NCBI GenBank assembly: GCA_007121015.1 | Contig: SKMN01000079.1 | Coordinates: 1-39,290, forward strand | Length of the DNA: 39,290 nucleotides | Source: Coriobacteriia bacterium | Lineage (GTDB): Bacteria > Actinomycetota > Coriobacteriia > Anaerosomatales > SLCP01 | Direction of reading: 5' to 3' | In this document: piece after piece, positions 492 to 5,625 of the stretch | Layout: each line of letters begins with the position of its first letter | How positions within the stretch are numbered: the stretch's first letter is position 1 | Position numbers and translations under genes: made by a program | Notes under the pieces: generated by a model | What the model was told of the DNA's origin: nothing | The model's database searches: none | The model's input: the letters and a program-made list of their open reading frames with translations, nothing else

Positions 492-716
492 ATGGAGGAG
501 CGAGTACAGGCAGCACTTGACAAGATCCGTCCCGCGCTTCAAGCAGACGGCGGGGACGTAGAGTTCGTCGAGATGACCGAGGACGGCGTCGTGAAGGTGC
601 GCCTCCAGGGTGCGTGTCGCGGCTGTCCGATGTCGCAGCTCACACTCGCGAACGGTGTAGAGCGCGTGCTGAAGGAGGAGATTCCCGAGGTCACTCGGGT
701 CGAGGCGGTGCAGTAG
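492..716 (+). CDS. NifU C-terminal-domain Fe-S scaffold protein
   Basis: A 74-residue protein consisting only of the NifU C-terminal (Nfu) domain. It has the usual opening of a helix and the ALQADGGDVEFVE strand, then the cluster-binding CxxC in GACRGCPMSQLTL, and ends EVTRVEAV. Members of the family bind a labile Fe-S cluster at the dimer interface through this CxxC and deliver it to apo-proteins. The ATG at 492 is preceded by a purine-rich ribosome site (GAAGGGAG, 477-484); upstream in-frame codons lack family similarity. It stands alone between the rRNA operon and a strong terminator, so it is probably monocistronic. Possible clients nearby include the [4Fe-4S] endonuclease III homologue and QueH, but that is inference. 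Confidence 0.93.
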   Translation: MEERVQAALDKIRPALQADGGDVEFVEMTEDGVVKVRLQGACRGCPMSQLTLANGVERVLKEEIPEVTRVEAVQ

Positions 717-3866: not shown

Positions 3867-4961
3867 TCAGAGGCCCTCGGTTATGCGGCTGACCACCGGT
3901 GTGGGAACGAATCCCGCGAGGTACTTGCCCCAGGACGACTCCATGAACGGGAGCCACTTGAGCTTGCGGTGGATGTTCGCGCCGATGTGGCGGGTAGCGC
4001 GCGCGTAGGCGTCGAGCGCCTCGGCCGGCGCCGATGTAGCGATGGCCTCTCCGGCGGTCCGGCCGGTGTTCATGGCGTACGAGATTCCTTCACCTGAGGT
4101 GGGTGACATGAAGCCACCAGCCTCACCTACGAGCAGCACGCGGCCTCTGCCGGGGATGACGTCTCCCGGAGAGCGCACAGAGAGAGCGACGCTGGCCTCG
4201 CGCTTGACCGTGTCACCGAGTTGTGGGAACGACTCGCGGAGCATCGTCATCGTCAGGTCTTGCTTGAGGTGTGGACGCTTCGTCTTGGGGTAGAAGACGG
4301 ACCCAACGATCGCGACGTCACCCTTCGGCACCACGTAGGAGTAGGCGTAGCTATCGCCGACATCGCGCATGTAGATGCAGTCGAAGTACGGCTCGAGCTC
4401 GCCGCCGAGGACACAGAAGTCCTGCAGCGTGACGTACGTGCTCACGCTGCCCTCGCCGAGCGCCCGCCGGACCGCGGAGCGGGCGCCGTCGGCGCCGACG
4501 AGGTTGTTGCAGCTGACCGCGTACTCGACACCGTCACGTTTCAGGGTGACGGTTACGCCATCGGCGTCCTGGGTGAAGCCGATGAGTTGTGTGGCGCCGA
4601 GGATCTCCACGTCGTCGGGAAGGAAGGAGAGGAGCCAGTCGTCGAACTCGCCGCGGTCGACGTTGAGGAAACGCAGGCCGGTGGGCTTGCGGATGCTGCG
4701 GTCCCAGTCCACGTACCGGAAGTTCACGTGTGCAGGGTCGAGGACCATCGACCTGGGCAGCGGCGCGATCCGCGCGAGGAACTCCTGGGCGTACTCGTTC
4801 AGCATGCCCCCGCAACTCTTGTCGCGGGGGAGAGCGGACGCTTCGACCAAGAGGACCGGGCCACGCTCGACGGCTCCGTATGCAGCCATCGCTCCGGCCG
4901 GGCCGGCGCCTACGACGATCGTGTCGTACTCGGGCCGGGGTTGTGGGCGTTCGCAGATCAC
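3867..4961 (-). CDS. Geranylgeranyl-reductase-family FAD-dependent oxidoreductase
   Basis: A 364-residue flavoprotein. An N-terminal FAD-binding Rossmann motif (VVGAGPAGAMAAYG, G18-x-G20-x-x-G23) is followed by the DG motif in LVGADGARSAVRRAL and the third FAD motif LLVGEAGGFMSPTSGEGI near residue 280. This set is typical of the geranylgeranyl reductase/halogenase-like group. Members reduce prenyl double bonds of lipids or quinones or hydroxylate aromatics, so the substrate cannot be named here; an isoprenoid lipid or menaquinone side chain is a reasonable guess. The GTG start at 4961 has a good ribosome site (CAGGAGTC). It is transcribed alone, convergent with dcd and divergent from the small Cys-rich gene. 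Confidence 0.85.
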   Translation of the reverse strand: MICERPQPRPEYDTIVVGAGPAGAMAAYGAVERGPVLLVEASALPRDKSCGGMLNEYAQEFLARIAPLPRSMVLDPAHVNFRYVDWDRSIRKPTGLRFLNVDRGEFDDWLLSFLPDDVEILGATQLIGFTQDADGVTVTLKRDGVEYAVSCNNLVGADGARSAVRRALGEGSVSTYVTLQDFCVLGGELEPYFDCIYMRDVGDSYAYSYVVPKGDVAIVGSVFYPKTKRPHLKQDLTMTMLRESFPQLGDTVKREASVALSVRSPGDVIPGRGRVLLVGEAGGFMSPTSGEGISYAMNTGRTAGEAIATSAPAEALDAYARATRHIGANIHRKLKWLPFMESSWGKYLAGFVPTPVVSRITEGL

Positions 4962-5061: not shown

Positions 5062-5144
5062 CGAGGGATCCGTGGCGCAAGACGACCGTCAGCAGAGAGT
5101 GTATCATCGGGCGCACAGCAGTCTGAACAGACGGGAGAGGACCG

Positions 5145-5384
5145 ATGCCGAAGTGCTGGGAAGAGCGCGGGTGCGACGAGGCGATGCAGGCGGATTGCCC
5201 TCACTCCGCCGTGATCGGCGACCGCTGTCCCACTAAGTGCGCGTTCGCCGGGTGTGACCGCCCGGCCTTCGAGCTCACCACCGATCCCGCACTCGTGTTC
5301 GAGCCCTACATCGACCGTACTGCGGCGATCAAGGAGACGTGCACGTACTGCGCGTTCTTCCTCACCCACGGACCCCGACTCTAG
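5145..5384 (+). CDS. Small Cys-rich protein of unknown function
   Basis: A 79-residue protein with eight cysteines: C4, C10, C18, C28, C32, C37, C66 and C69. The N-terminal half reads CWEERGCDEAM, then DCPHS and DRCPTKCAFAGCDRP; a CTYC pair lies near the C-terminus. The spacing suggests one or two metal sites (zinc or Fe-S), but no named family is recognised. There is no signal peptide or membrane segment, so it is probably cytoplasmic. The ATG has a strong ribosome site (GGGAGAGG) and codon choice matches the neighbours, supporting a real gene. It is followed 13 bases later by a small membrane protein gene whose ribosome site overlaps its stop codon, so the two are probably co-transcribed. 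Confidence 0.82.
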   Translation: MPKCWEERGCDEAMQADCPHSAVIGDRCPTKCAFAGCDRPAFELTTDPALVFEPYIDRTAAIKETCTYCAFFLTHGPRL

Positions 5385-5397
5385 AAGGGACACTTTG

Positions 5398-5625
5398 ATG
5401 ATGGCGTTCATCGACGACGACCCGGTCGCGGTGTTGTGGCGGCTGGTCAGGGACATCTTCTTCGTTGTGGCAGCGTACGCAGGGCTCTACGCTGTGCGTC
5501 GCATCGCGAGCGGGCTGATGCTCGGCTCCCGTATCACGGCTCTGCGCGAGATGGGAGAGGCGTATACGCCCGAGGAGCGCGAGGTCCTCATCCATCGCAT
5601 CAAGCACGACTCGCTCCATCGCTAG
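5398..5625 (+). CDS. Small single-span membrane protein of unknown function
   Basis: A 75-residue protein. One predicted membrane helix covers roughly residues 18-40 (DIFFVVAAYAGLYAVRR), followed by a charged tail ending TPEEREVLIHRIKHDSLHR, which may form an amphipathic helix. No family is recognised. The start is either of two consecutive ATG codons (5398 or 5401), placed behind an AGAAGGGA ribosome site that overlaps the stop of the preceding Cys-rich gene. The endonuclease III-like gene begins about 11 bases after its stop. The tight spacing suggests a three-gene operon, though no functional link is evident. Confidence 0.75.
   Translation: MMAFIDDDPVAVLWRLVRDIFFVVAAYAGLYAVRRIASGLMLGSRITALREMGEAYTPEEREVLIHRIKHDSLHR

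Follow-up and report, generated by a model that had tools for sequence, protein, structure and literature searches.

The window, 39,290 nt from a Coriobacteriia bacterium, encodes a 79-residue protein, ORF1, which matches no Pfam or NCBIfam family and represents a family of the Coriobacteriia that has no name. All eight of its cysteines are invariant in the aligned homologues, and in the taxonomic order of the window its gene has a constant neighbour, a downstream gene for an HhH-GPD DNA glycosylase, while a second small gene, ORF2, is an optional insert within this pair. Metal binding is the natural reading of the invariant cysteines and is very likely in a small cytosolic protein, from presumed anaerobes, in which all eight are fixed. 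The number and kind of the metal centres and the function of ORF1 are inferred. The features concerned are:

5145..5384, + strand: ORF1, 79 residues, with eight invariant cysteines and invariant W5, H20 and P29
5134..5140, + strand: ribosome-binding site GGAGAGG of ORF1, 4 nt upstream of the ATG
5102..5107, + strand: -10-like hexamer TATCAT upstream of ORF1, conserved in relatives as TANNAT
5398..5625, + strand: ORF2, 75 residues, probable single-span membrane protein with a conserved C-terminal AYTPEEREVLIHKIK segment
5637..6437, + strand: HhH-GPD (endonuclease III-like) glycosylase, with an inferred GTG start 11 nt past ORF2
3867..4961, - strand: FAD-dependent oxidoreductase (PF01494, E 2e-17), a divergent, conserved upstream neighbour
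504..704, + strand: gene for a NifU C-terminal domain protein (Nfu; PF01106), 4.4 kb upstream of ORF1

The ORF1 protein family

The first-pass annotation, made from the sequence alone, described ORF1 as a protein with a dense cysteine pattern and a strong ribosome site. Both are present: the cysteines lie at residues 4, 10, 18, 28, 32, 37, 66 and 69, in part within the motifs CPHS, RCPTKCAFAGC and CTYC, and the GGAGAGG site is found in a purine-rich leader. The protein is net acidic (12 D+E versus 8 K+R) and has no hydrophobic stretch resembling a signal (0.49 is the best mean over 19 residues). Its AlphaFold2 model (pLDDT 83.6, pTM 0.73, with the five models ranging from 83.6 down to 64.9) consists mostly of loops and short helices; Foldseek returned five PDB matches to it, all with E >= 8, and VIA-align returned none. 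Searches of Pfam and NCBIfam gave no family match for ORF1, zinc-finger families included, and nothing usable for ORF2 (best Pfam E for the ORF2 family, 0.015), in agreement with the annotation's view that neither protein falls in a recognised family. ORF1 profiles found chance-level matches only among PDB sequences (8k9e_B, E 0.65; 2rpc_A, E 3.3), and tblastn of ORF1 against plasmid and phage collections found no match.

Homologues of ORF1 at E <= 0.001 occur in 81 of 99 Coriobacteriia genomes, its own included, with identity down to 38%. They are single-copy in each genome, are present in 20 of the 22 sampled families of the class, and show zero internal stops among the matches listed. With ORF1 found in 81 and ORF2 in 26-27 of the 99 genomes, both genes stand far above chance. 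ORF1 is missing or rare in three families (0/4 genomes of f18, 0/2 of f16 and 2/6 of f22). A sample of the phylum gave ORF1 matches in at least 22 of 396 genomes, with at most 14 candidates scored per genome; outside the class, these were confined to two genomes, G385 and G412, of one sister class, in which 2 of 36 genomes had a match. When named genomes were scanned for conserved peptide patterns, 77 stretches matched and 67 ORF1 loci were confirmed, although such a scan misses divergent members and several of the loci are contigs already in the 99-genome set. The record titles are mostly those of metagenome-assembled genomes (MAGs) of Coriobacteriia or Actinobacteria, groundwater and sediment MAGs among them, together with one Anaerosomatales and with Eggerthellaceae (Slackia, Adlercreutzia, Raoultibacter). 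Slackia, Adlercreutzia and other Eggerthellaceae are gut bacteria. One record titled Aeromicrobium is the same contig as a genome of our set (G055) that is placed in the window's order.

An alignment of the 27 most diverse rows, two of them from the sister class, has all eight cysteines, W5, H20 and P29 invariant in every row, which answers in the affirmative the question of cysteine conservation that the annotation had raised. The eight cysteines are likewise fixed in 97 of 97 rows of a larger set with genome duplicates; the 117-row set behind the permuted-profile controls described below also includes genomes present twice. A single-copy gene in 20 of 22 families with every cysteine fixed indicates a basic function, for a protein to which the searches made here gave no name. 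The Eggerthellaceae-type proteins carry an addition: a C-terminal NRF[LI]L tail is conserved in 34 of 47 of them (loci L081-L127) and was found neither in ORF1 of the window nor in the homologues at loci L061-L080. This tail suggests a binding partner.

The glycosylase gene and the optional ORF2

The annotation had ORF1 and a following membrane protein as a two-gene unit. Both genes are real, and that of ORF2 begins 13 nt past the ORF1 stop, with AAGGG in its leader, and has homologues of its own. A single membrane span is plausible, if marginal: the best 19-residue Kyte-Doolittle mean is a moderate 1.64, and the model (pLDDT 83.4, pTM 0.50) predicts a long helix at residues 9-55 and a short one at 58-74. 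The most conserved part of the protein is the C-terminal segment (EER...IHKIK) and not the membrane part. ORF2 homologues were found in 26 of 99 genomes with the single sequence and in 27 with a profile, all in the window's order; the profile match in G003 is flagged with a TGA, and the single-sequence matches contain no stops. ORF2 adjoins ORF1 in 25 of these 27 genomes (24 of 26 on the single-sequence list, to which G017 was added), as the annotation would have it, but the profile has no match in 54 of the 81 ORF1 genomes. Nor was ORF2 found in 30 genomes of the class's other families, 19 of which have ORF1. G048 has two copies apart from ORF1 and G053 a further one, and those in G053 and on contig C118 of G048 are surrounded by unrelated genes. 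The free copy in G053 (locus L179, 4576-5201) overlaps a small gene downstream of another gene, a context unlike that of the window; we take the overlapped gene to be PqqD-like and the gene before it to be oligopeptide-transporter-like.

The more constant neighbour is a third gene that the annotation missed, that of the HhH-GPD protein. It lies directly downstream of ORF1 on the same strand in 59 of the 59 order-level genomes counted with both genes. The ORF1 and HhH matches are 1-94 nt apart in 35 of these genomes and 255-456 nt apart in the 24 where ORF2 separates them, and because 35 of 59 have no ORF2 in between, ORF2 is an optional insert within the ORF1-HhH pair. The count covers the 62 order-level genomes among the 81 with ORF1, leaving out 19 of other families, and takes the strongest HhH match per genome. 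The exception is G039, for which a short fragment at the end of C140, the contig that carries ORF1, was counted (E 2.1e-6), its main piece (E 1.9e-95) being on C18; the match in G008 is two merged pieces and that in G058 is short (47 residues, E 2.1e-7). Without G039 and G058 the adjacency is 57 of 57. The count leaves out additional pieces in G011, G040 and G042, Nth/MutY-like matches of lower strength, and a fragment at a contig edge in G001, whose genome is 85% complete and gave no match to ORF1.

HhH was not found in 3 of the 62 genomes (G004, G017, G033), which keep ORF1 with DUF1015 next on the contig, and its matches in the class's other families, where ORF1 is present, are weak and paralogue-like only. 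In G008, G025, G026, G030 and G039 the HhH match contains flagged stops. ORF1 therefore stays where HhH is absent or broken by stops and is independent of an intact HhH gene. In the sister class, G385 has HhH near ORF1 with one gene, presumably peptidase-like, in between, while G412 has no HhH near ORF1.

The window's HhH protein contains GIGRKKA, the aspartate of YDVQVRR and a C-x6-C-x2-C-x5-C loop of the [4Fe-4S] type. An HhH stretch was obtained from 28 of 29 loci examined, and 23 of the 28 have the loop pattern; four of the five misses are cut or frame-broken, and in G385 a His replaces one Cys. With narrow patterns, 17 of the 28 stretches showed the HhH motif and 24 showed the Asp motif, the rest being broken, cut or differently worded. 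The window's protein carries both the Lys HhH motif (GxGRKKA-like) and the catalytic-type Asp, positions that we assign by assuming correspondence with endonuclease III. It resembles TIGR03252 and endonuclease III in the HhH motif and in the catalytic-type Lys and Asp positions. However, it scores 98.6 bits against TIGR03252, under the cut-off of 136.5, and its endonuclease III-type Fe-S loop lies outside the matched stretch; it has no Pfam match, and a search of open-licence PMC articles found no paper on TIGR03252. This protein may belong to a subgroup that bears Fe-S and has no name, one found here in the order of the window and in a single genome of the sister class.

Gene order and transcription around ORF1

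The gene order in the window's order is nfu, ribonucleotide reductase (presumably class II), dcd, FAD oxidoreductase (opposite strand), ORF1, ORF2 where present, and HhH, followed by DUF1015 (opposite strand), AzlD and AzlC. The FAD oxidoreductase, which we take to be geranylgeranyl-reductase-like, is upstream of ORF1 on the opposite strand at 19 of the 20 loci L061-L080. At the start of the window, positions 1-299 hold the 3' end of the 23S rRNA and the 5S rRNA gene, so the contig begins inside an rRNA operon.

The distance from nfu to ORF1 differs among lineages: some 3.5-4.8 kb in the window's order, and at most 400 nt at 41 of 47 Eggerthellaceae-type loci (L081-L127). The other six of these 47 had no Nfu match in the stretch examined, and no nfu was present in the stretch examined at loci L128-L131, L133, L135-L137, L139, L141, L142 and L144 of other families. 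We considered ORF1 as a functional partner of Nfu, a reading that is weakened since an older gene order accounts for their closeness and since f18 keeps Nfu (4 of 4 genomes sampled) with ORF1 in none of four. The older order would have been nfu-RNR-dcd-FAD oxidoreductase-ORF1-(ORF2)-HhH ... lgt, and nfu and ORF1 would have come close through loss of the genes between them. Given that nfu shares a block with ORF1 in the order of the window and that f18 has Nfu without ORF1, the adjacency is probably inherited gene order, which may or may not reflect function.

ORF1 probably heads its own transcript. A TANNAT hexamer lies 37-60 nt ahead of its start at 21 of 21 loci (the window and L061-L080, some of them closely related), whereas in 500 mononucleotide shuffles the number of such loci averaged 1.1 and never exceeded 5; a strict two-hexamer sigma-70 scan upstream of ORF1 found no site. 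Co-transcription of ORF1 with the downstream genes is likewise probable.

Possible functions of ORF1 and its likeness to the two-CW domain

The eight invariant cysteines would best fit two four-cysteine centres, either [4Fe-4S] or Zn. None of the sequence or fold matches indicates a metal, and the invariant His, were it a ligand, could break the 4+4 count. Fe-S would be somewhat favoured over Zn because of the presumed anaerobic life of the host and the company of the gene, namely HhH with its Fe-S loop and Nfu. In the window's order, the ORF1 gene closely precedes a [4Fe-4S]-type HhH-GPD gene, with ORF2 between them in about two fifths of those genomes. On this account ORF1 would most likely serve Fe-S or DNA-repair enzymes in an accessory or redox/cluster-maintenance role, and would be less likely to act as a sensor for ORF2. 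We hold to this reading of a cytosolic metal-binding mini-protein tentatively, at a little less than even chances. A more specific form of it, that ORF1 represents a lineage-specific, double-cluster, mini-ferredoxin-like class that passes electrons or [4Fe-4S] clusters to a dedicated DNA glycosylase, and elsewhere in the class Coriobacteriia works with Nfu, is a long shot; if true, it would open the redox state of a repair enzyme to genetic study. The constant ORF1-HhH neighbourhood within one order gives a simple way into the question of how the cluster state of DNA-repair enzymes is set or sensed.

The annotation's own proposal, a metal sensor with a membrane partner, draws on the adjacency of ORF1 in 25 of 27 ORF2 genomes. 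Yet two thirds of the ORF1 genomes (54/81) have no ORF2 match, ORF2 has copies apart from ORF1 in G048 and G053 and lies inside the tighter ORF1-HhH pair, from which it is missing in 35 of 59 cases, and the ORF1 homologues that we read are short single-domain proteins without a sensor output domain; we consider such a pair very unlikely. A structural Zn protein of the zinc-knuckle type, which would bind a repair protein or nucleic acid and play no part in redox chemistry, would suit a small, cysteine-rich protein modelled mostly as loops and short helices and encoded next to a DNA glycosylase. It is nevertheless improbable, as ORF1 has one CxxC only, no paired knuckles, a net acidic composition and no zinc-finger family match, and the sole zinc-finger match in the PDB (ZIC3, E 3.3) is at chance level. 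Likelier than either, though still on the doubtful side, is that ORF1 is related to the two-CW domain (NF045718) and, as a stand-alone protein, acts like a sensory metal or redox domain: the two share the motif order CWExxxC ... CP ... CxxCxF, and their profile signal lies above that of shuffled controls, but every score is sub-threshold and ORF1 is without an attached sensor domain.

The scores behind this comparison are mixed. The two-CW domain is present in 29 of the 99 class genomes (24 above the cut-off), including the window's own (G000:C18), and had no match among PDB sequences and no paper among open-licence PMC articles. The window's ORF1 has no match to NF045718 at E <= 1, and the best of five ORF1 relatives scores 12.6 bits, under the curated cut-off of 35 bits; ORF1 of G385, however, matches over the full length with E 0.14. 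The hhalign probabilities of 6.5%, 16%, 18% and 28-37% are all under accepted thresholds, one global alignment aligned a single column, and most local alignments span one end only, while that with the kinase-inserted form of the domain runs end to end (hhalign P 0.0013). Each of 27 ORF1 and 24 two-CW rows was also scored under the other family's profile, the bias correction being added back: no more than 3 full shuffles in 200 reached the real score for any row, and no more than 6 of 200 (ORF1 rows) or 5 of 200 (two-CW rows) did so when the cysteines were held fixed. Permuted profiles reached it in 0 of 300 trials in each of two controls.

Both proteins are about 80 residues long, begin with CWExxxC, contain CP and end with CxxCxF(F); ORF1 thus has the C-terminal CxxC followed by an aromatic residue that is a two-CW feature. 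The two-CW domain differs in having seven invariant cysteines, a second CW and a Gly-rich middle, whereas ORF1 has eight cysteines, an invariant His and CPxxC-x4-C, and retains the first CW only, although NCW is present near the second place in sister-class G412. The two-CW domain occurs alone and inserted in long proteins (L054-L059, L188-L195), which we take from their sequences to be PAS histidine kinases. In the inserted copies L188-L194 the cysteine of GTLC is replaced (GTLG, GTPG, GTPS, GTTG), a natural variant series. The kinase-inserted form is clearly related to the two-CW domain (hhalign P 4.7e-14), as ORF1 is not, and unlike ORF1 it sits inside a long protein. It has a middle shorter than that of the stand-alone domain and shares with ORF1 the layout CWExxxC ... 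CPA ... DxRCW. With the shared motif order and a signal above that of the shuffles, a distant kinship of ORF1 with the two-CW domain, beneath family thresholds, is possible to probable.
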